A DNA stretch of 64,000 nucleotides, taken from contig NZ_KB905024.1 in NCBI RefSeq assembly GCF_000377405.1, positions 1 through 64,000 of the forward strand, written 5' to 3'. Every line of letters begins with the position of its first letter. Position 1 is the stretch's first letter. A model generated the notes under the pieces. The model saw only the letters and a list, made by a program, of their open reading frames with translations. It was not told the origin of the DNA and searched no databases. This document shows positions 32,243 to 43,853 of this stretch, one piece after another. Made by a program: the position numbers and the translations under genes. Source of the DNA: Thioalkalivibrio sp. ALE31. GTDB taxonomy: Bacteria > Pseudomonadota > Gammaproteobacteria > Ectothiorhodospirales > Ectothiorhodospiraceae.

Positions 32243-33088
32243 ATGAACAATACGACGAGCACGCGATCCGGCCTCTTGTCACCGGCCTCTGCGCCATGCA
32301 CCCGCCCGCGCAAATGGCGGACGCTGAAGGCCCTGGCCGCGGCCAGTCTTCTGGCCCTTCTGGTCGTCCAGCCCCCGGCCGCGGCCGATGCGCTGCCCGA
32401 CACCATCGAGCGCGTCAAACCCTCGGTGGTCAGCATCGCCACCCACCAGCCCGCGCGCAGCCCCCGGGCCCATTACCTCGCCACCGGCTTTGCGGTTGGC
32501 GACGGTAGTCTGATCGTCACCAATCACCATGTGATCCCGACGTCCCTGGATCACGAGAACCGCGAACAACTCGTGGTGGTCAGCGGCGAAGGCCGTGACA
32601 CCTCCATCCACAGCGCGGAACTGGTGGCCCATTCGGCGGACGACGACCTGGCCCTGCTGCGGATTGCCGGGCCCCCGCTGCCACCCCTGCAGCTGGGATC
32701 CTCCGATGCCGTGCGGGAAGGCGAACAACTGGCCTTTACCGGCTTCCCGATCGGCATGGTCCTGGGCACCTATCCCGCGACCCATCGCGCGAGCGTGGCG
32801 GCGCGCACCCCCATGGCGATCACCGCCCGGCGCTCGAGCGAACTGAGCGAGGCGCGCATCCGGCAACTGCGGGCCGGCGCACCCATGGTGTTTCAGCTGG
32901 ATGCCACCGCCTACCCCGGCAACAGCGGGAGCCCCGTCTACCGGATCGACAGCGGCGAAGTCGTCGGCGTGATCAATCAGGTCTTCGTCCAGGGCGGACG
33001 CGAGGCGGCGGTCGGCCACCCCAGCGGGATCAGTTACGCGGTGCCAGCGGACCGGATTCGTCCGCTGCTGGCAAACGCCCGGGAGTAA
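32243..33088 (+). CDS. exported trypsin-like serine protease
   Basis: This 281-residue protein carries a predicted signal peptide: a basic N-region to about residue 29, a hydrophobic core at 30-42 and a likely cleavage after AAADA near 50. A chymotrypsin-fold domain follows with catalytic His96 (TNHHVI), Asp135 (DDDLALL) and Ser228 (PGNSGSPV). No PDZ domain is present, unlike DegP/DegQ. The likely site is the periplasm, and the substrate is unknown. Confidence 0.82.
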   Translation: MNNTTSTRSGLLSPASAPCTRPRKWRTLKALAAASLLALLVVQPPAAADALPDTIERVKPSVVSIATHQPARSPRAHYLATGFAVGDGSLIVTNHHVIPTSLDHENREQLVVVSGEGRDTSIHSAELVAHSADDDLALLRIAGPPLPPLQLGSSDAVREGEQLAFTGFPIGMVLGTYPATHRASVAARTPMAITARRSSELSEARIRQLRAGAPMVFQLDATAYPGNSGSPVYRIDSGEVVGVINQVFVQGGREAAVGHPSGISYAVPADRIRPLLANARE

Positions 33089-34102: not shown

Positions 34103-34164
34103 GGGCCCGCTGGTCGGGTAGACGGGCGGCGGTCGAGCTGCGGGTTCGGGAGCGCGCGGACCTC

Positions 34165-34509
34165 AGGGAGACGCTGATTGAATCGCACGTCCGCGCTCGA
34201 GTCGCTTTTGCGTGCGAACAAGGCGCGGTGACTGCCGTGCAGTCATTCTGCACAAGGGAACCGCAACGCCGTTCCCGCGCCCGTTTTTGATCAACAACGG
34301 GCGGCCGAGCCCCTGCTTTCAATGGCTTGTGGGGTTGGTGCCCCCCGATTCTGAATGAATATGGCCCGATCCTGCGTTGCGCCCCGAATCCATCCAAAAC
34401 GGGCGGGTAGAACCACTACCCGCTGCACGACGCGCCTTGTCTCGGAACGTTTGTCTCGAACAACTGGGGGGGCACCAACGCGGACGTGCGATTCAATCAG
34501 CGTCTCCCT
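34165..34509. repeat. hairpin array bounded by 31-nt inverted repeats
   Basis: The arms 34165-34195 and 34479-34509 are perfect 31-nt reverse complements, and the right arm overlaps the stop codon of the nucleotidyltransferase gene by one base. Inside are small hairpins GTGCAG/CTGCAC and GGGAAC/GTTCCC (about 34232-34275), the 24-nt palindrome (34279-34302) and GGGTAG/CTACCC (about 34405-34421). There is no open frame of note. The arms would suit a non-autonomous mobile element, but no target duplication was identified. Confidence 0.6.
34279..34302. repeat. 24-nt palindrome, copy 2
   Basis: This is identical to the palindrome at 344-367 (arms GCCCGTT/AACGGGC, core TTGATCAA). Two exact copies 34 kb apart in unrelated intergenic settings indicate a dispersed unit. 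Confidence 0.6.
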
Positions 34510-35615
34510 CAGGGTTCGGGCCGTTCCCGCTTCCCCTTGCGCTGGTCCTTGACCGCCTTGCGCACCAGATGAGGCAGGAGCAGGTGGAGCGGCATGCGCA
34601 GGTAGTGGGAACGCACGTACAACAGCCAGCGCGCGGCGCCGGACCCGACGCCATCGCAGCTCCAGTGATGGGGTATCAGGCCGCGCCGGAACAGCCCGTC
34701 CATCAGCCCACGCAGAGGCGCCGACGGGCGCGCGCGGGCCAGGGCCGCGAAGGCCGAATCGGGCACGGGGGTCTGCAGGAATTCGCGGCCATAGCGCAGG
34801 GCGTAGAAGAGCGGGCGTGCCAGATCCATCTCGAAGGCGCGCGCCGTCAGCCGCTCCCAGAAACCCGGATCCTCGGCCACAAAGTACCGCAGCAGCGCAT
34901 CCAGATCGGCCAGGTCCCGCAGCCCGTTCTCCAGCTCGCCGTCGTGGAACAGGTGCGTCGCGCTGTGCAGGACCATGTCCACCGGAGCCGGGATATACAC
35001 ACCCGGGTGGTCGTCGAGCGGCAGCGCCGCCTGCCACAGAAGATCCGGGTCGGGATGCAGCCGCGCGGTCGGCGGCAGGATGGTGTGGTGCACGTCCAGC
35101 ACGCTCTTGCGCTGGATATGCGTGAGCGGCGGCAGTTCGTGCATCCACTGGCGGTAGTACCGCTGGTCATAGGCATCGTAGCCCTCGCAGACCCAACCCT
35201 GGACAAACAGGTGCTGCTCCGCCTGCTCAATCCGCGCCTGCGGGACGAGGATGTCGACATCGGAGAACTGACGCCCCGGGGCGCAGGGCAAGCCCGCCAT
35301 GACATAGGCAGCGCCCTTGAGCAGCATCATCGGGATCGCCTCGGGCGCCAGGGCCTCGTGGATCCGCGCCACCTCCCAGCGGACCATGGCGTGCTGACGG
35401 TCCGCCAGGACCCGGGCCGCGTGCAGGTGCCGTCGCGGCGCCGGTGGCACCTCGGGCAGTGTCCCGGCCTCCTCGATCAATGCATGCAGCCGCCCTTCCA
35501 GGGAGGCCACCCGCGCCACCCGCACCAGCAGGTCCCAGTCCGCCAGCGAAAGCCGCCCGGCCGACTTCGGAGCGCCCAGGACCGCGAGCAGTTGCGTCAG
35601 CGCGGAGGATGTCAC
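34509..35615 (-). CDS. nucleotidyltransferase family protein of the HPr-rel-A operon
   Basis: This 368-residue protein of the NTP_transf_5 type has the nucleotidyltransferase signature in RQFSDVDILVPQARIEQAE (about 140-158) preceded by LLKGAAYV. The start is taken as GTG 35615, which overlaps the stop codon of the kinase gene (GTGA); upstream Met codons would run into that gene. Homologues occur beside HprK-related kinases in exosortase-bearing genomes and in some peptide-modification clusters. It probably transfers a nucleotide or nucleotide-derived group, and the acceptor is unknown. Confidence 0.78.
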   Translation of the reverse strand: MTSSALTQLLAVLGAPKSAGRLSLADWDLLVRVARVASLEGRLHALIEEAGTLPEVPPAPRRHLHAARVLADRQHAMVRWEVARIHEALAPEAIPMMLLKGAAYVMAGLPCAPGRQFSDVDILVPQARIEQAEQHLFVQGWVCEGYDAYDQRYYRQWMHELPPLTHIQRKSVLDVHHTILPPTARLHPDPDLLWQAALPLDDHPGVYIPAPVDMVLHSATHLFHDGELENGLRDLADLDALLRYFVAEDPGFWERLTARAFEMDLARPLFYALRYGREFLQTPVPDSAFAALARARPSAPLRGLMDGLFRRGLIPHHWSCDGVGSGAARWLLYVRSHYLRMPLHLLLPHLVRKAVKDQRKGKRERPEP

Positions 35616-36517
35616 GCGCCCCCCGCGGTCAGGTCGTTCAGCAGCCCCAGGGTGGCATCCAGATCTGCGTACTCGAGCTCGAGGCACGCACTCTGCTCGA
35701 TCAGGTCGGCCGCGGCCTCGAAGCCCGCGGCCCCCACCACGCTGTAGTTGAACGACGACCCGACCAGCCGCTGCAGGGCCACGGCCCGGTCCAGCGGCGC
35801 AAGGTGGTCACGGCCCCCCGCGGCAAAACGCGGGAAGACCAGCCAGGCCGGTCGCGCCGGGTCGTGCATCTTCTGAATACTCGCATCCGGCGGTCTCAGA
35901 TGCGCCACGGTCCCCTTGCTGGTGTCATGCGAGGCGGGCCCGATGACCGCCTGCGGGTAGCGCTCGCGGATCAGGTCAATGGCTGCATTCTTCAGGCTGA
36001 CCGGGCGCGGCAGGGCCACCAGCTGCCCGTCCGTCAGGGAAAGCAGGGCGAATTCGTCCGACAGCAGGCGCCAGCCGGACAGGGTCAGCGCGGCGGTCAG
36101 CGTGCTCTTCCCCGCCCCCGGCTCGCCCGGCATCACCAGCGCCCGACCGTTACGTTCCAGCACCGCCGCGTGGATCATCAGGAAGTCGTGGGCGTGCTGG
36201 GCAATGCACCAGTTCAGTCCCCACTCGAACAGCGGGTAGGCGTGGGCCAGCGGGAGGGGGCGAAACGGTGATCGACCGTCGAGGAAGAATCGCGCCTGCG
36301 GGCGCCAGAGCCAGTGCAGACCGGAGGCCCGTGCGAGCGTGATGTGAAAATCGGCAAACGCCGCCTGTTCCGGCGGCAGCAACTGCCGGTCGTAGAACAG
36401 GGCCAGCGCGCGTTCGACCCGGTCCAGCCGCGAACGCAGCCGGACCACGAACGGGCCCACCTGAAGGGCCACCCCGGCGCCGCGCAGCCCCGCGCGCAGG
36501 TCTTCTGGGGCTGTCAC
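35612..36517 (-). CDS. HprK-related kinase A
   Basis: This 301-residue protein is related to the kinase domain of HPr kinase. It has HAAV at 116-119, Walker A GEPGAGKST at 131-139 and an acidic SDEF motif at 153-156. The region MHDPARPAWLVFPRF lies further on. It lacks the N-terminal domain of true HprK, and no HPr or PTS gene lies nearby. It overlaps the PqqD-like gene by 4 nt. Related kinases phosphorylate serine in modified peptides, for example lasso-peptide C-termini, so a peptide or protein substrate is plausible. Confidence 0.88.
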   Translation of the reverse strand: MTAPEDLRAGLRGAGVALQVGPFVVRLRSRLDRVERALALFYDRQLLPPEQAAFADFHITLARASGLHWLWRPQARFFLDGRSPFRPLPLAHAYPLFEWGLNWCIAQHAHDFLMIHAAVLERNGRALVMPGEPGAGKSTLTAALTLSGWRLLSDEFALLSLTDGQLVALPRPVSLKNAAIDLIRERYPQAVIGPASHDTSKGTVAHLRPPDASIQKMHDPARPAWLVFPRFAAGGRDHLAPLDRAVALQRLVGSSFNYSVVGAAGFEAAADLIEQSACLELEYADLDATLGLLNDLTAGGA

Positions 36518-36816
36518 GCGTCCCGCGAGTCCGCCGGATCACAGATCAGGTGATGCTCCCGCAACTGACTCAGGCCGGCCTGCATCGCATCCTCCAGCTC
36601 CCCCTCGGCGGCTTCGTAACGCTGTTCAAGGTACTCGAACAGGGCCGTCGGCGTCATCGGCCCCTCTTGCAGGGCCTGGAAGAGCTCGGTGAGGGGCGGT
36701 TGCAGCACGTGTGTCTCGCCACAGCGCTGATCAAAGACGACCACGGATTCGCCCCACGCCCGCACGTGAGCGACCGGCAGCGAAATCAGTTCGAGGGGTT
36801 CTTCGGGAACGGACAA
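36514..36816 (-). CDS. PqqD-like protein of the HPr-rel-A system
   Basis: This 100-residue winged-helix PqqD-family protein (VVVFDQRCGETHVLQPPLTELFQAL, then a helical C-terminal half) matches the HPr-rel-A system PqqD family. PqqD proteins bind leader peptides and deliver them to modifying enzymes. Here the candidate recipient is the HprK-related kinase, with which it overlaps by 4 nt. The gene starts 52 nt after the Cys-rich exported protein gene in the same transcription unit. Confidence 0.85.
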   Translation of the reverse strand: MSVPEEPLELISLPVAHVRAWGESVVVFDQRCGETHVLQPPLTELFQALQEGPMTPTALFEYLEQRYEAAEGELEDAMQAGLSQLREHHLICDPADSRDA

Positions 36817-36868
36817 GTGCGCCTCGTTTACCGTACGGCCAGCCGTACCCGGGGCAGCGCCCCGCAGG

Positions 36869-37636
36869 TCAGCGATTGCCCTTCTGGTTGGACGTGGTGG
36901 TCCGCACCTCTACGCATACGCCCAGTTCGTTGCGCGAGTATCCATCCTCGCAGTCGCCCTGGCTGTTGATTGGGCAGAAGCGCTCGTTCATGTAGACGAA
37001 GACGTTCTTCACGGCCGTGTACTTGTCCGCGTCATCGCGGGCCATGGAATAGGCCTTCACCACCTCATCCACCGAGGCGCCAAAGTCGATCGAGGTGCAG
37101 GCCGCGTTCAGGACCGCCCCCACCGCATGCCAGTCCAGCGATCCACTGCACACGCCACTGGCCTGCAGCACCTCCATCAGCGACGGCGAGCCACTCAGAC
37201 ACTCCGGCTTGTAGCCGAACACCGACTCGAAGGAGGTCGCGCCACCGGGATGCACCGTCGCATCGAAGCTGCGGCACTGGTTGCCCGGTGGATTGGTCTT
37301 GTGGCAGGTCCCCGGCGAGTAGCCGGTGCAGTCCCAGGCGAACCAGTTGTTCTTCCAGAAGCCCGGCGTGCAGCCATCGCCCTCGGTGCACTCGTGGTCG
37401 ATATTGGAGACGTTGGCGGAGAAGATATTACCCGACAGCGAACACTGCCCCTGTGCACCCCAGACCGACTTGGCGGGGAGAGACACCAACATCGCGCCAC
37501 CCAGGCCGGCGGTGGTCAGGCGGCGGCGAGTCCGGCTGCGCGGGCCGGACGAAGCCTCGTCCCGATCCACGGGGCTGCCGGACGGATCCTCGCCCTCCGG
37601 GCCATGGCTGTGGTTCTGATCGTGTTCGTCGCTCAT
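36869..37636 (-). CDS. Cys-rich exported protein with CTPGFWKNN motif, possible HPr-rel-A substrate
   Basis: This 255-residue protein is first in the HPr-rel-A operon. It has an acidic, histidine-containing head (1-34), a basic RTRRR stretch (35-39) and a short hydrophobic segment (43-53). A possible cleavage site SVWGA follows at 57-61; this resembles a Tat-type leader without the full RRxFLK motif. The mature part has about a dozen cysteines and the motif CTPGFWKNNW (89-98), found in assorted secreted proteins. The start at 37636 is set by a GGAG-containing ribosome site; an upstream in-frame Met is less likely. The function is unknown. Being a PqqD/kinase substrate is inference from context. 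Confidence 0.7.
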   Translation of the reverse strand: MSDEHDQNHSHGPEGEDPSGSPVDRDEASSGPRSRTRRRLTTAGLGGAMLVSLPAKSVWGAQGQCSLSGNIFSANVSNIDHECTEGDGCTPGFWKNNWFAWDCTGYSPGTCHKTNPPGNQCRSFDATVHPGGATSFESVFGYKPECLSGSPSLMEVLQASGVCSGSLDWHAVGAVLNAACTSIDFGASVDEVVKAYSMARDDADKYTAVKNVFVYMNERFCPINSQGDCEDGYSRNELGVCVEVRTTTSNQKGNR

Positions 37637-37753
37637 TCTTGCCTGCTCCAGGTCCGTCCCCGGCGTCACGCCGTTCGCGCCAGGGCACCCGCCTCCACCC
37701 GCACCGGGGGAATTTCGGGGCACACTGCAATCAGACGCTTTCTACCAAGAGTT

Positions 37754-37769
37754 AGCAAGCGCAATGCCA
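37754..37769 (-). promoter_or_regulatory. sigma-54 (-24/-12) promoter of the HPr-rel-A operon
   Basis: On the minus strand the site reads TGGCATTGCGCTTGCT, a near-consensus sigma-54 promoter with GG and GC exactly 10 nt apart. It lies about 118 nt upstream of the Cys-rich protein gene and points at it. It implies control by an enhancer-binding activator; the PEP-CTERM regulator PrsR is the obvious candidate from family knowledge but is not in the window. Confidence 0.7.
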
Positions 37770-37890
37770 CTCCATCGAATAACGGGTAACTCACTGATAT
37801 CGAGGGCCGCCTCATCAGGCCTCGGGTTCGCAAGGGCGCTCGTCGCCGCCAAGTGCAAAATTTCCCGACAGGGGCCGGACGGCCGGTACA

Positions 37891-38625
37891 TCACGCCCTG
37901 CGCAAGCGCAGAATGAACGAATGGCTCAGCCATGCCCCGGCGACCGGGACCGACTGCAGCACACCACGGGTGCCCCGGTTCTCCAGCAGTGGCTGCAGGC
38001 GCGCGAGACGCCCGGGTGCCAGCGGCAACCAGTCCAGCTCCAGCGCCACCAGACCCGCGGCCTCGGCCGTCGCGCGCAAGGCGGCGGGATCGTCGTAGCG
38101 CAAATGCGGCGGCTGTCCCCGGCGATGGCGCCGCCACTCCCGAAGCGCCGTGGGCAGACACCGCAGGTTCAGCGCATCGACCCAGGCCTCGCCACCGGGA
38201 CGCAGGACCCGCCGGATCTCCGCCAGTGCCGGCGCAGGCTCCGACAACGCCTGCATTACGCCAAAGCAGAGTACCCCGTCGAACGCGGCATCCGGCAGCG
38301 GGAGCTGCTGGATATCCGCCGCCAGCCACGGGATCGTCGGATTGCTGCGATCCCTCGCCTTCGCCAGGGACGGGGTGGAGTAGTCCAGCCCCCACACCGC
38401 ATGACCCTGCGCATGCAGCATCCGCGTGTAGGTACCCGCGCCACAGCCGATATCGAGCCAGCGTCCGGGCGCATGGGCCGCGTCCCGCCAGAGACGCTCG
38501 AACTGCCGCACGCGGCTGTTCAGGCCGGTCGGCGTCCAGCCGGCGATCCCGGCGTCATCCTCCAGGCTCGCTCCGCGTTCGAGGAAACGCTGGCGCCAGC
38601 GGCGCTCGAATCCGGTGTCCTTCAT
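37891..38625 (-). CDS. class I SAM-dependent methyltransferase
   Basis: This 244-residue Methyltransf_11-type protein has the SAM-binding motif GRWLDIGCGAGTYTRML (about 54-70), the acidic strand-end LDYS, and ADIQQLPLPDAAFDGVLCF. Substrate is not evident; similar enzymes occur in polysaccharide and quinone pathways. It is 13 nt downstream of the GAF-domain gene on the same strand, so the two are probably co-transcribed. Confidence 0.85.
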   Translation of the reverse strand: MKDTGFERRWRQRFLERGASLEDDAGIAGWTPTGLNSRVRQFERLWRDAAHAPGRWLDIGCGAGTYTRMLHAQGHAVWGLDYSTPSLAKARDRSNPTIPWLAADIQQLPLPDAAFDGVLCFGVMQALSEPAPALAEIRRVLRPGGEAWVDALNLRCLPTALREWRRHRRGQPPHLRYDDPAALRATAEAAGLVALELDWLPLAPGRLARLQPLLENRGTRGVLQSVPVAGAWLSHSFILRLRRA

Positions 38626-38638
38626 GGCACCCTCGCCG

Positions 38639-39361
38639 TCATTCCCGCCCCTCGCTCACCTGGCCGATCAGTTCGGTCGCGGCCGTCAGCACATGATCGC
38701 GGGAAAACCCGGCGCGGCTCATCTCGTCGTACAGCGTGCGCGCGAGCAACCGGGCCACGCGCTCCGGTGCGTGGGTAATGGGCCCCGTCGCCGCTCCCGG
38801 CTGACGGGCCAGCGCCATTTGCGTGAAACTGGTGCGCAGCAGCCCCTTCAGCCGATGGACCAGTACGGACTTGGCCACCACCAGCGCCAGGATCGATGCC
38901 ATGCGCAGATCCTCCTGCGTCAGCCGCCGCTGATCGCGCGGGGAATCAATATTGATCACACCGATCACCTCGCCATCGAGCACCACCGGCACCGCGATCA
39001 CGTCGACCGCCTCCACCTCGTGGCAACGGCGGGCGTCGCCGGCAAATTCGGAATGGTGGAGATCGTTGATCAGGAGTCCTTTGCCGGATGCGGCGACCTG
39101 TCCCGCGATGCCGGTCCCGAAACGCTGGGACTCCCCGTAGGCCTGCGGCACGAGCGCCCCCTGGTGCGCCTCGACCCGGAGGCGTGGTTCGCCGGTCTCC
39201 GGATCCTGTTTGACCAGCATGATCGAGCAATGCCGGCAGTCCATGGCGTGGCCCACCAGGACCGTCAACTGGTGCAGCCCCTTCTCCATGGACTCGGCTT
39301 CTTCAACAAACCGGGCCAGCTCGAGCAGGTGCTCGTCAAACGCCTCGAAGGCCTTGTTCAT
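38639..39361 (-). CDS. GAF-domain protein
   Basis: This 240-residue soluble protein has a GAF domain at about 20-165 (CSIMLVKQDPETGEPRLRVEAHQG, GTGIAGQVAASGKGLLINDLH, AVPVVLDGEVIGVINIDS). A helical C-terminal region of about 70 residues has no recognisable output domain. GAF domains bind small molecules such as cyclic nucleotides. It probably acts through a partner. It precedes the methyltransferase gene in the same unit. Confidence 0.8.
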   Translation of the reverse strand: MNKAFEAFDEHLLELARFVEEAESMEKGLHQLTVLVGHAMDCRHCSIMLVKQDPETGEPRLRVEAHQGALVPQAYGESQRFGTGIAGQVAASGKGLLINDLHHSEFAGDARRCHEVEAVDVIAVPVVLDGEVIGVINIDSPRDQRRLTQEDLRMASILALVVAKSVLVHRLKGLLRTSFTQMALARQPGAATGPITHAPERVARLLARTLYDEMSRAGFSRDHVLTAATELIGQVSEGRE

Positions 39362-39467
39362 CTCCCGGGATCCAAGGAAGGTCGGTCAAACGAGAGTAGC
39401 AGCGGGATTTCCCGACAGGTACCCGCCCCGGGCCATGCCGTCTGCGCGACCGTGAGCCGACACGAAA

Positions 39468-39502
39468 AACCCCCGGTCTGGCGAAAAGCCAGCACCGGGG
39501 GT
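39468..39502 (-). terminator. intrinsic terminator downstream of the VanZ/ligase gene
   Basis: Minus-strand transcript from the preceding gene would form a long stem (ACCCCCGGT with ACCGGGGGT, extended by CTGGC/GCCAG) around a TTTTC loop. A run of T follows. It begins 12 nt after the stop codon at 39514. Confidence 0.8.
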
Positions 39503-39513
39503 TACCGGCCAGC

Positions 39514-42500
39514 TCAGCTGGCTCCAGGCCCGGCCCGCGCCGAAACAGCGTTAGCATCCAAACCGGCTCGCAGCGGCGCCGACGCCACGCCCAGCAACAG
39601 CGTCAGGTAAAACAGCAGCGCGATTCGTGGCGAGAAGAACAGCGTGCTGAACAGTCCGATAGCCAAGGCCCCCGTAAGTGCGGCGGCGGCCCCCAGCGCC
39701 ACCCGATCGCCCGTCAGGCCACGCCGCAGCAGCAGGACGAGGGCGGCCAGGGTGAGCCAGACGAAGGCCAGCAGGCCGAGCCCGCCCTGGTCGAAGTAGA
39801 TCTCCAGCCACTGATTCTCGACGCGCCATGGCCAGAGGTGATCCGTGGTGAAGTACCAGTGGCGGCCCAGGTGCCGGAAATCGCCATTGGCCACATATTC
39901 GCGACCGGCCGAATCCCGGATCTGCACCCTGTAAAATTCGACGACAGACTGCTGACGTGCGTCGACTGCCAGCGACAGCACGAGGCCGCGCTGGAATGGC
40001 CAGGGACGCGTCTCCATGGGATCCAGATCGAAGGCCCACTGGAAGCTCTGACGCCCACCATCGTCCAGGCGCATCCCCTCGCTGCGACAGACGAAGGAAT
40101 GGCGGATGGGCTTCTCGCAGATGAACACCCGGAATCCCGCTGGCCGCTCGCTGGCCGCCTCCACCGTTACGGTAAAGCGCCGGTCACGGGGCAGGCTCAC
40201 GCGCTGATTCACGAACAGCGAATCGCCGCCCCCGATCTGCAGGCGCGGCACATCACCCTCGTGGGTGAACGCCAGGTTCCCGGGTACGCGCCCGTCGCGG
40301 TTACCCGTGCGATAGTGCTCGGGGAAACTGCCGACACCCCGGCCCAGAAGCGGCGCCAGCGGCCCGGCACCGGGTAACTCGAGCGCGGCACGCCAGTGAT
40401 CCAGGCGACTGCCGAAGTCGCGTTCGATCTGACCCAGTCGCTGTTCGGCAAACCCGCCCAGCGTCGTGCCCGCGATCAGCGCAATCGCCACGACCGGCAA
40501 CAGCACACCGGCCACCACGGCCCCGGCCGACCGCATGCGCCCATGCATTGCCGCCAGCAGCATCCCGGCCGCCAGCACCGCAACCGCCACCGCGAGTCCC
40601 AGATACCCGCCGCGCGAATAGGTCATCGCGACCGCATAGGCGGTCCCGACCGCCAGCACGGCCGATCCGGCGAGCAGTACGCCGGGGCGCTGCCGCCAGC
40701 ACCAGACCAGAGCGAGCGGGAAGGCCAGCACCAGGAAGGTCTCGATGCTAGGGCCGCCCGCCTGCATCTCGGAGAAGATCCCGGAGAGGCGATAGCCGCT
40801 GTCGAAGTTCAGCAGGCCGGGATAGGTGATCCGCTCGCGCACCACGAAGGCCAGCTGCGCCAGCAGGGCGAGCCCCACGCCCGGGAGAAACCAGCGTGTC
40901 ACCTGCTCCCGGACCGGAATGGGCGCCACGCGCAACACTGCCAGCAGCACCACCGCCCACAGCAGGCCCTTGGCGACCCGCAGGGCATTCCAGTCGTGGG
41001 CAAAGTGCACCGCTGCGCCGGGGTTCCAGCCTCCGGGCGGCCACAGGGCCAGCCCCAGGCCGATCAGGGTGGAGACGACCAGCAGCCCCAGTGGCCAGCG
41101 GATCCCGCGCGGCAGCAGCGATACGCCCGCATGCAGCGCATGGGGCCCCCGCCACAGGGCCACGGCCAGGGTCATCAGCAGGAACAGATCCAGCTCGGAG
41201 ACGAACAGGCGCCCGTGGTAGAGGGTCAGGTCCAGCGTGGCCAGCAGAACCGGGATCACGACCAGCCAGGCCTGCGGGCGCCAGGCCAGCAAAGCGGCGT
41301 AGGCCAGCAACCCCGCGGCCAGCGCGACCGGCGCCACCGGCCAGGTCACCGCCGCCAGCACGGCCACCAAAGCCAGGAGACCGCCAAGGGCCTGCCGCAA
41401 CCGCTGCAGAGAACCCTTGACGGGGCCGGGGTCGCTCGGTCCCGGGCCAGCATCGAGGGGCCCGGCTCGCGACGCCACGACCGGTTGCGCGACACCCGCC
41501 ACGCTCGCGCGTTCCAGCCACTGCAGTGAGGCCGCCATGAGCCCGGCCGCCAGCCCGGCCAGGACCAGGCTGGCCGGGTCCGGTCGGGCACCGTCCACAA
41601 ACAGCTTGGCGGCCTCGACCGCCAGTGCCAGCGCACCCCCCGCGACGACCGCCAGCAGGTTCAACGCGGCCGGTTGCAGTGGATGACGCAACTGCCAGAG
41701 CCAGACCAGCATCCCCAGAGGCGCGTACATGGCCAGGTGCAGCGCGGTACTGCGCAGGGCGTGGATCTCGTCCACGTGGTAGTGGTAGTAGAACGGCCAC
41801 AGGTTCAGGTCGGCCCACTGGGCACGGACCGCCTCCCCGTCGGCGTGAAACGCACCGAAGCCGTGGTTGAGTGCGACCAGCAGCAAGGCATAGGCGACAG
41901 CGCCGGTCACAAGCAACGGGGTGGCGAACTGCTGCAGCGTCCGGATCACGCCATGGGGATGCGCGGGCAGGCGCCGGAACAGGACGAGGCCGATCCCCAT
42001 CCCCAGTGCCCGCAGCAGCACGGAACGTCCTTCGGCAATCCCCGACAGAGTCGCCAGATTCAACAGCTCCAGCAGGCCCGCCAGCAGCAGGGCCAGGGGA
42101 ATCCCGGCCCCTAGCAGCGAAGCTCCGCGCCGCTGCAGCCAAAGCGCCAGGAGCAAGCCCACCGGTACACTGACCACCACCTCCAGCGTCAGCCAGCTGA
42201 TACAGCGGAGACCACCCGTGCAGGCGCCGGCCGCCACCCACCAGCCCCAGGCATCCGATGCCAACCGGGCCCGCAACTCGTCCGCGGCCAGTACAAAGTC
42301 AAAGGGGACGAAGCCAATCAGCACGTAGAGCGCGGCATAGACCACCAGACCGGCGGTCAGGGTCTGCGCACCCGCGCCTTCCAGCACCTGCCGCCAGCGC
42401 ACCAGCGGATCGCGCAGGGCCAGCCAGACGAGCGAACCGGCCACGGCCCCGGAAAAGTTACCGGCAATATCGGCGCCCGCGGGGTGCCGATAGGGCAGCC

Positions 42501-42849
42501 AGACCTGCAGGAACTCCACGCTCGCCGTAACCGCCAGCCCCAGGGCTGCCACGAAGGTGAACACCGCAAACGCCGTCAGTCGATTCCGGCGGCCATGGGT
42601 CAGCCAGGCGGTCCAGAAGAACCCCAGCGGCAGGAACATCAGGGCATTGGCCATAAACTGCTGGCGGCCGCTGGTGCCGGGGCCGGTCAGGCTCATGCCG
42701 CGGTAGATCTCCCAGGCGCGTTCCAGACTCATCGAGCCGAATTCGAACGGCAGCAGCGTCAGATAGATCGCCGCCCCCAGCGACAGCCAGGCCCACAGCG
42801 CACAGGTGCGCAGGGACAAGGGCTCGTCTGCATTCGCCATCGCGTTCAT
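39514..42849 (-). CDS. VanZ-like / O-antigen-ligase fusion membrane protein
   Basis: This 1111-residue polytopic membrane protein has repeated VanZ-like membrane modules (about 15-145, 165-290 and 310-435; the motif MANALMFLPLGFFW is near 66-79). A Wzy/WaaL-type ligase region runs from about 490 to 850, with TYSRGGYLG at 743-751 and GRGVGSFPEHY at 837-847. A soluble, beta-rich domain (about 862-1000) interrupts the last helices (1022-1095). Ligases of this type join polysaccharide repeats or transfer glycan to proteins or lipids in the periplasm. VanZ and ligase genes are frequent in exosortase loci, and the three-part fusion is unusual. Confidence 0.8.
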   Translation of the reverse strand: MNAMANADEPLSLRTCALWAWLSLGAAIYLTLLPFEFGSMSLERAWEIYRGMSLTGPGTSGRQQFMANALMFLPLGFFWTAWLTHGRRNRLTAFAVFTFVAALGLAVTASVEFLQVWLPYRHPAGADIAGNFSGAVAGSLVWLALRDPLVRWRQVLEGAGAQTLTAGLVVYAALYVLIGFVPFDFVLAADELRARLASDAWGWWVAAGACTGGLRCISWLTLEVVVSVPVGLLLALWLQRRGASLLGAGIPLALLLAGLLELLNLATLSGIAEGRSVLLRALGMGIGLVLFRRLPAHPHGVIRTLQQFATPLLVTGAVAYALLLVALNHGFGAFHADGEAVRAQWADLNLWPFYYHYHVDEIHALRSTALHLAMYAPLGMLVWLWQLRHPLQPAALNLLAVVAGGALALAVEAAKLFVDGARPDPASLVLAGLAAGLMAASLQWLERASVAGVAQPVVASRAGPLDAGPGPSDPGPVKGSLQRLRQALGGLLALVAVLAAVTWPVAPVALAAGLLAYAALLAWRPQAWLVVIPVLLATLDLTLYHGRLFVSELDLFLLMTLAVALWRGPHALHAGVSLLPRGIRWPLGLLVVSTLIGLGLALWPPGGWNPGAAVHFAHDWNALRVAKGLLWAVVLLAVLRVAPIPVREQVTRWFLPGVGLALLAQLAFVVRERITYPGLLNFDSGYRLSGIFSEMQAGGPSIETFLVLAFPLALVWCWRQRPGVLLAGSAVLAVGTAYAVAMTYSRGGYLGLAVAVAVLAAGMLLAAMHGRMRSAGAVVAGVLLPVVAIALIAGTTLGGFAEQRLGQIERDFGSRLDHWRAALELPGAGPLAPLLGRGVGSFPEHYRTGNRDGRVPGNLAFTHEGDVPRLQIGGGDSLFVNQRVSLPRDRRFTVTVEAASERPAGFRVFICEKPIRHSFVCRSEGMRLDDGGRQSFQWAFDLDPMETRPWPFQRGLVLSLAVDARQQSVVEFYRVQIRDSAGREYVANGDFRHLGRHWYFTTDHLWPWRVENQWLEIYFDQGGLGLLAFVWLTLAALVLLLRRGLTGDRVALGAAAALTGALAIGLFSTLFFSPRIALLFYLTLLLGVASAPLRAGLDANAVSARAGPGAS

Positions 42850-43013
42850 GTGGCGCTCGGGGATGGGGCCGGGTCATCACTGTATACCCGGTGGAGTCCG
42901 CGGAGCAGTAGCGCACAGGAATCGCGACAAGCGTCACGAACCTTTACACCGGCAAGGCCGAACCCTCTCGTATGCCCCGTTGAATCCCGACAAGTCAGTG
43001 AGTTGCAGCGCAA

Positions 43014-43029
43014 TGGCACGATTGCTGCT
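43014..43029 (+). promoter_or_regulatory. sigma-54-type promoter of the PEP-CTERM gene
   Basis: TGGCACGATTGCTGC has the invariant GG and GC exactly 10 nt apart. The -24 box is consensus and the -12 box (CTGC) differs by one base from TTGC. It lies 38 nt before the PEP-CTERM start codon. Sigma-54 control with PrsK/PrsR is known for PEP-CTERM systems. Confidence 0.6.
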
Positions 43030-43067: not shown

Positions 43068-43853
43068 ATGAAAGGACCACTCGCTATTGCACTGATCGCC
43101 GCGGGGGCGATGCTAGCCGGAACCTCGGCCCAGGCCGCGTTCATCACTTATTTCGGAGAGGATCTGAACAACTCGGCGACCGTTCCGTTGTCTGAGACCC
43201 CCAACTCCGATGCGGCCGAAAGCGCCTTTCTCGGGTCGCTCAGTGGCGTCGGAACCGAGGACTTCGAAGGCTTTGCCACGGGGACCACTGCGCCACTGAA
43301 TCTGACCTTCCCCGGCTTCGGTGGTGGCACGCTTGACGCGACCCTTACGGGGGACGGCCGCATCAAGACCGTCTCCGAGGGCAGCGCCTTCGCTGGTCGG
43401 TACTCCGTATCGGGCACCAACACTTGGCGGGCCGATGCGACGGGAGACGACGGATTCGGCGTGGACTTCGGACAGGACATCGCCGCCTTCGGGTTCTACG
43501 GGATCGACATCGGGGACTTCGGCGGGCAACTGCTGATCAATTTCAACCTGAGTTCGGGAGGCGTCCACCAGGAAATCGTCCCGCACACCGTGGGATCCGG
43601 CGGATCTACGGACGGCTCGGTCTTCTACTTCGGCGCAATCGCCTCAAGTGAGGACTTTCTGTTCACTTCGCTCGACTTTGACCTGGTCGCAGGGCCGACG
43701 ACCGACATCTTCAGCTTCGACAATATGACCATCGGTGAACTCGAACAAGTTACGCCAGTCCCGACGCCCGGCACTCTAGTATTGTTTGCTAGCGGTTTGC
43801 TGGTAGCCGGATCGATGCTCTGGCGCCGCAAGCGGTCCGACAGCGGCAGCTGA
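43068..43853 (+). CDS. PEP-CTERM sorting-domain protein
   Basis: This 261-residue exported protein has a signal peptide (about 1-24, ending SAQAA). The mature domain (about 25-225) is glycine- and aspartate-rich and predicted beta-rich. A C-terminal sorting signal follows: PVPTPGTLVLF at about 233-243, a hydrophobic helix and a basic end WRRKR. Thr replaces the usual Glu of the PEP motif. Exosortase A is expected to cleave here and export the protein with the exopolysaccharide. AAGGGAG at 43054-43060 precedes the ATG. Confidence 0.87.
   Translation: MKGPLAIALIAAGAMLAGTSAQAAFITYFGEDLNNSATVPLSETPNSDAAESAFLGSLSGVGTEDFEGFATGTTAPLNLTFPGFGGGTLDATLTGDGRIKTVSEGSAFAGRYSVSGTNTWRADATGDDGFGVDFGQDIAAFGFYGIDIGDFGGQLLINFNLSSGGVHQEIVPHTVGSGGSTDGSVFYFGAIASSEDFLFTSLDFDLVAGPTTDIFSFDNMTIGELEQVTPVPTPGTLVLFASGLLVAGSMLWRRKRSDSGS

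Follow-up and report, generated by a model that had tools for sequence, protein, structure and literature searches.

A PrsR-type sigma-54 promoter upstream of the HPr-rel-A operon of Thioalkalivibrio suggests regulation together with PEP-CTERM genes

The PEP-CTERM regulon was outlined by Haft et al. (2006), who describe a 17-nt motif ending in TTTACA that precedes a sigma-54 motif at a mean distance of 62.8 nt (range 32-92), report it before 99 of 167 proteobacterial PEP-CTERM genes, predict PrsR as the activator, and give promoter-to-start distances with a mean of 71, a minimum of 23 and a maximum of 221 (PMC1569441). For one PEP-CTERM gene, pepA of Aquincola tertiaricarbonis, a promoter with the elements TGGCAC and CTGCTT has been mapped and its dependence on RpoN1 established by experiment (PMC9850573). 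In lasso peptide biosynthesis, an HprK-like kinase phosphorylates a C-terminal serine, and pseudomycoidin further receives one or two hexoses from a nucleotidyltransferase (PMC8498205, PMC7533575). The HPr-rel-A system is named in the curated library (NCBIfam TIGR04352, TIGR04353); to it the present analysis adds a probable class-wide placement in the PrsR regulon and a candidate substrate gene. A literature search that covered neither papers behind subscription nor the comment fields in family databases returned no paper with HPr-rel-A, HprK-related kinase or HprK-rel-A, none that pairs PEP-CTERM with HPr kinase, and none on exosortase together with PqqD; the link between the operon and PEP-CTERM may therefore already be noted in those sources.

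We compared with these systems a 64-kb stretch of the 2.77-Mb genome of Thioalkalivibrio sp. ALE31 (hereafter the window), the features of which are collected in Table 1. The locus resembles the PrsK/PrsR regulon in its motif 1, its -24/-12 motif 2, their spacing, the distance to the start codon and the presence of PrsR, PrsK, PrsT and exosortase, and differs in that a target here is a four-gene HPr-rel-A operon instead of a PEP-CTERM gene, in the TTTGCA or TTTCCA of the Thioalkalivibrio box, and in an operon spacer of 84 nt, compared with the published mean of 62.8 and maximum of 92 (PMC1569441). The PEP-CTERM promoter of the window has both pepA elements, TGGCAC and CTGCTT, whereas the pepA experiment, as far as the available text of that paper goes, covers rpoN dependence of a PEP-CTERM gene only (PMC9850573).

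Table 1. Coordinates of the promoter elements and genes in the window.
Feature	Positions	Strand	Remarks
HPr-rel-A operon promoter, sigma-54 type (-24/-12), TGGCATTGCGCTTGCT	37754..37769	minus	consensus match and conservation
PEP-CTERM gene promoter, sigma-54 type (-24/-12), TGGCACGATTGCTGCT	43014..43029	plus	consensus match; ALE14 counterpart TGGCACGCTTGGTGCT
PrsR-type PEP-CTERM box (motif 1), TGTCGGGAAATTTTGCA	37854..37870	minus	start lies 101 nt before that of the operon -24/-12 site
PrsR-type PEP-CTERM box (motif 1), CGTCACGAACCTTTACA	42932..42948	plus	start lies 82 nt before that of the PEP-CTERM -24/-12 site
IHF-like site, TATCAGTGAGTTA	37787..37799	minus	exact WATCARNNNNTTR, between box and promoter
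IHF-like site, AGTCAGTGAGTTG	42993..43005	plus	one mismatch; not kept base for base in ALE14
First gene, predicted exported protein with Tat-type signal, C-x-SG...C...CTPGFWK	36869..37636	minus	candidate substrate
HPr-rel-A system PqqD-family protein	36514..36816	minus	TIGR04353, PF05402
HprK-related kinase A	35612..36517	minus	TIGR04352
NTP_transf_5 family nucleotidyltransferase	34509..35624	minus	PF14907; start codon uncertain
PEP-CTERM gene, divergent tail (PVPTPGTLVLFASGLL...RRKR)	43068..43853	plus	TIGR02595

The operon consists of four closely packed genes on the minus strand (34509-37636), the last three of which overlap by a few bases in turn, while the first and second are separated by 52 nt. 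As in the curated HPr-rel-A system, the kinase (387.2 bits, cut-off 200) and its PqqD partner (64.8 bits, cut-off 35) pass the curated cut-offs, and the P-loop and SDE motif of the kinase are invariant in 14 aligned proteins; the near-universal first gene for a predicted exported protein and the PrsR-type promoter are additions to the system as curated. On its own strand the operon contains two weak terminator-like stems (counting both strands, the region has three, against 1.1 expected). The first-gene product matched nothing in NCBIfam or Pfam at E ≤ 0.01, and a profile iterated on its own hits (weakest members 43-49 bits) placed a homologue at the head of the operon in 40 of 41 loci, the remaining one being at a contig edge. 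The consensus of these proteins reads sRRRLlKaal.AaPvimTLaSRPalA....CTlSG.lSGNlS.p....C.G.sPGYWkn, and 28 of 40 carry a TPGxW-like motif. The Tat signal motif is S/T-RR-x-F/L-x-K; in the signal consensus sRRRLlKaal..P the two arginines are kept in 39/40 and 40/40 proteins, and the window protein reads RRRLTTAG, without the lysine. This pattern fits a Tat signal, so that export is predicted. The residues that follow the arginine pair are more conserved than is usual for signal peptides, as would be expected if a partner, for instance the PqqD protein, recognised them. A RiPP-style reading is weakened by the lack of a conserved leader ahead of the RR motif. AlphaFold gave a poor model of the first protein (mean pLDDT 56), which had no PDB match at E ≤ 0.001; in PDB sequence searches, neither the kinase nor the NTP_transf_5 protein had a relative at E ≤ 0.1, and the best hit of the first protein (E 0.023) was not convincing.

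The gene content recalls the paeninodin and pseudomycoidin clusters, which likewise combine an HprK-like kinase, a nucleotidyltransferase, a PqqD-like protein and one precursor (PMC8498205, PMC7533575). Unlike those clusters, the operon lacks genes for a lasso cyclase, a protease and a transporter (a family scan of its four genes gave no match to lasso cyclase or leader protease), and its putative substrate is mostly ~190-240 aa long with a Tat-type signal; because the lasso genes are missing, we take the likeness to be one of working principle and not of membership. The first protein is quite possibly, if short of probably, the substrate of the co-encoded enzymes, and it is possible, with more reservation, that the operon performs phospho-sugar chemistry. 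Alternatively, the system might be a sugar- or energy-sensing phosphorelay like that of HprK and HPr which merely responds to the matrix programme, with the first protein an unrelated passenger. We consider this unlikely: the kinase is homologous to HprK at the level of its family name, but no HPr family match was found among the four genes, the exported first gene heads the operon almost throughout, and partners such as PqqD and NTP_transf_5 are more in keeping with the tailoring of a peptide or protein.

With respect to the promoters, a pattern search confirmed that both sites proposed in the earlier note, TGGCATTGCGCTTGCT and TGGCACGATTGCTGCT, are present where it placed them with GG and GC 10 nt apart. 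They lie 117 nt (operon, gene start 37636) and 38 nt (PEP-CTERM gene, gene start 43068) from the start codons, distances that the note had called sensible and that fall inside the 23-221 given by Haft et al. (PMC1569441). TGGCATTGCGCTTGCT is the sole exact match to TGGCAYN5TTGCW within the window, and TGGCACGATTGCTGCT, with one mismatch, is one of four such. Genome-wide, 121 places match with up to one mismatch, compared with 82 for the reversed control pattern. The -24/-12 consensus alone is not significant and stands at chance level. Thus the note's use of the -24/-12 match as evidence stood only in part: the sites are real, but the match by itself is insufficient, since with up to two mismatches the window holds 33 matches against 45.7 expected and 98 of 100 shuffles gave at least as many. 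What raises the two sites above chance is the box upstream of each and their conservation, neither of which figures in the note.

We rebuilt motif 1 from sequences, the published logo being a figure, and combined 14 boxes and 9 promoters of PEP-CTERM genes from the genomes of the family into a matrix; the two other PEP-CTERM genes of this genome were in the training set and both window promoters were kept out. When 728 overlapping tiles of the window were scanned on both strands, the highest score fell on the PEP-CTERM promoter (32.7) and the second highest, 30.0, on that of the operon; the next place reached 20.3. The boxes themselves score 17.0 (operon) and 16.8 (PEP-CTERM gene), and both lie within the published 32-92 nt upstream of motif 2, the PEP-CTERM spacer being 65 nt. 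CGTCACGAACCTTTACA is nearly identical in strain ALE14.

A whole-genome scan with the box-plus-promoter patterns TGTCR-N6-TTTNCA and CGTC-N7-TTTNCA followed by TGG-N10-GCW at 60-90 nt gave six hits (2 + 4), and the controls gave none. Four of the six correspond to the two promoters of the window, to one further PEP-CTERM promoter and to that of a PilZ/exosortase-acyltransferase pair; on inspection of the letters, the other two lie within coding sequence or across a gene start. Motif 1 is found upstream of all three PEP-CTERM genes that pass the cut-off in a six-frame model search of this genome. The product of the window gene is a borderline TIGR02595 member (18.4 bits in the six-frame search, 14.0 bits by hmmscan, cut-off 16), and the third gene has a start-to-start spacing of 132, outside the patterns. 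In the pair (L156 1501-3095, from C5:92760 onward), a PilZ-domain gene is followed by an exosortase-associated acyltransferase (TIGR03694, 121.6 bits, cut-off 111.95) behind a box-plus-sigma-54 promoter, and is likely a further member of the regulon. One candidate for a fourth PEP-CTERM gene (L004) was rejected, as it scores 15.0 bits, below the cut-off, and coincides in frame with the middle of a 292-aa ORF on the minus strand, which by eye resembles a UbiA-type prenyltransferase. The regulon gene set (rpoN, prsK, prsR, prsT, exosortase A) is present in the genome: rpoN has a single match, and PrsT, PrsR, PrsK, EpsB_2 and the exosortase A cluster lie at 76-112 kb of the contig that holds the window.

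The closest named relatives by kinase are five Thioalkalivibrio strains (81-90% identical), in which the operon is arranged as it is here. Thioalkalivibrio versutus AL 2 (L050), a cultivable strain, carries both operon and promoter. All six Thioalkalivibrio operons compared preserve the box, the IHF-like block and the promoter: invariant columns number 14/17 in the box, 19/23 in the IHF-like block and 12/16 in the promoter, against 62/193 in the remainder. The PEP-CTERM gene is at this place in one of the five strains only (L049, by protein search), where its box and promoter are kept.

Across the class, 41 of 369 genomes have an HprK_rel_A kinase over the cut-off and 106 have PrsR over the cut-off. 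PrsR is found in 40 of the 41 operon genomes, compared with 66 of the 328 without the operon (Fisher p = 1.3e-23, kinship ignored, so that for these related genomes the value overstates independence); the sole exception is a genome that is 75% complete, and PrsR is found in 2 of 11 genomes that have only below-cut-off relatives of the kinase. Where kinase and PrsR share a contig, they are at most 71 kb apart in 12 of 19 genomes, contig sizes being unadjusted. We scored the matrix upstream of the first gene after dropping two operons, G303 (contig edge, without the upstream gene) and G405 (93 bases upstream). In 33 of the 39 testable operons, the window included, its score was higher than that of every one of 100 dinucleotide shuffles of that region, and in 28 it exceeded the pooled 99.9% null (22.3). 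The best control scores were 17.2 in 11 below-cut-off HprK loci, which offered longer stretches (in a twelfth, G343, the stretch was too short for scoring), and 15.2 when all 41 loci were read on the opposite strand. Several of the 33 have weak -24/-12 scores in the region tested (G152 -2.7, G167 1.5, G134 2.2, G286 2.2). No convincing box was found in six testable operons, of which G291, G293, G330, G192 and G398 carry PrsR and G054 does not.

A second scan covered the window, 14 named loci and two genome stretches (17 sources, 357,765 bases, both strands). It gave 34 entries above 18 and 21 at or above 24, a threshold chosen after the list was seen; one of the 21 is a shadow of another. The 20 distinct sites divide into 10 before an HPr-rel-A first gene and 10 before a PEP-CTERM or PEP-CTERM-like gene, and include one promoter from the training set, in L163. 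In 10 of the 14 sources having upstream sequence, which L061 lacks, the operon promoter reached 24; those below were L055 (19.6), L057 (12.9), L058 (11.2) and L060 (5.6). PEP-CTERM-type neighbours passed the curated cut-off in five of the seven tested (L053, L054, L056, L058, L061; below it, L048 and L057). From these comparisons, the predicted PrsR-type promoter is a widespread feature of the HPr-rel-A operon in the class.

The earlier note's central proposal, that the operon belongs to the PEP-CTERM sigma-54/PrsR regulon, is supported by the box, by its conservation in 6/6 Thioalkalivibrio operons, by its recurrence in 33/39 operons, by PrsR in 40/41 genomes and by the regulon gene set of this genome, and we consider it very probable that operon and PEP-CTERM gene share this regulon. 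An operon promoter answering another NtrC-family activator with a similar box is improbable. Such an activator is conceivable in that the genome encodes 14 PrsR-like proteins at E ≤ 1e-20, just one of them above the PrsR cut-off, and the Thioalkalivibrio operon box departs from the PEP-CTERM consensus in its core (here TTTGCA, one mismatch to TTTACA); against it, the box ends in the full TTTACA in most other genomes tested and the operon tracks PrsR as described. That both -24/-12 matches are chance and an unseen promoter drives the operon is highly improbable in view of the conservation, the upstream box and the cross-class recurrence, even with the consensus count no higher than expected, and the lack of a sigma-70-type match in 34400-38000 says little because only 0.3 was expected.

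Between box and promoter, both window promoters have an IHF-like site; WATCARNNNNTTR is presumably the IHF consensus. An activator site, a bend and a sigma-54 promoter form the usual layout. With up to one mismatch, WATCARNNNNTTR was found in 33 of 46 box-promoter spacers, compared with 14% of mononucleotide-shuffled spacers. Many start-to-start distances between box and promoter lie near 69, 81, 92 and 102, in steps of about one helical turn, and the spacing is phased near 10.5-11 nt (Rayleigh p at 10.5 nt, 1.1e-4 for 33 operons and 2.9e-8 for 46 promoters, kinship ignored and independence again overstated, the genomes being related). As an example of such kinship, G067 and G321, of one genus, have identical box and promoter. 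The three longest spacings (146-148, in G358, G258 and G137) were kept as scored; by eye, each of these operons has a nearer second box at ~102-104 carrying a TGTAA...TTTACA dyad, which points to a TGT-N11-ACA inverted repeat as the form of the PrsR box. A 10-mer beside both promoters, TCAGTGAGTT, followed by TGGCA 5-25 nt downstream at only these two places genome-wide, was ruled out as a private regulator site, as it is not kept upstream of the ALE14 PEP-CTERM gene; given this and the fit of the longer operon form to the IHF consensus, we treated it as IHF-like and not as the link.

For the shared PrsR/sigma-54 regulon we propose the following sequence of events. PrsR, with its kinase PrsK, would bind the 17-nt box, an imperfect TGT-N11-ACA dyad, and DNA looping, probably aided by IHF at the middle site, would bring it to activate the RpoN polymerase, so that PEP-CTERM gene and HPr-rel-A operon would be switched on together. 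Because their switch-on signals are common, the operon products and the surface-matrix proteins are probably made together. The operon would yield a Tat-type exported protein and three cytoplasmic-looking proteins (PqqD-like, HprK-like kinase, NTP_transf_5), which may modify the first protein with a phosphate and then a sugar or nucleotide before it is exported folded, and the modified protein may join the exosortase-dependent matrix. By association, the operon may serve the PEP-CTERM/exopolysaccharide matrix. A fuller version, which we regard as doubtful, is that the operon is a tailoring arm of the exosortase-A programme: PqqD would guide the HprK-like kinase and NTP_transf_5 protein to place a phosphate-linked sugar or nucleotide on a folded cytoplasmic protein, which, exported by Tat, would join or be covalently attached to the matrix as a second class of matrix protein besides PEP-CTERM, with P-V-I-M-T-L-x-S-R-P as the recognition element. 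The proposal turns uncharacterised genes into a testable hypothesis on floc and biofilm matrix building in exosortase bacteria, and would extend the PEP-CTERM-box regulon of 2006 to a specific, recurrent non-PEP-CTERM target.

Several neighbours of the operon were noted. Between it and the PEP-CTERM gene lies, on the minus strand (39514-42849), a gene for a membrane protein of 1111 aa, which has a VanZ domain and matches Wzy_C below the threshold. A 35-nt inverted repeat close to the NTP_transf_5 gene end (34161-34195 and 34479-34513, 97% complementary, 283 nt apart) looks like the remnant of a small mobile element. On the plus strand, 32243-33088 by eye encodes a trypsin-like secreted protease, which recurs as a neighbour: homologues adjoin the HPr-rel-A operon in the Alteromonas loci L056-L058, and a fragment that looks similar by eye lies upstream in G101.
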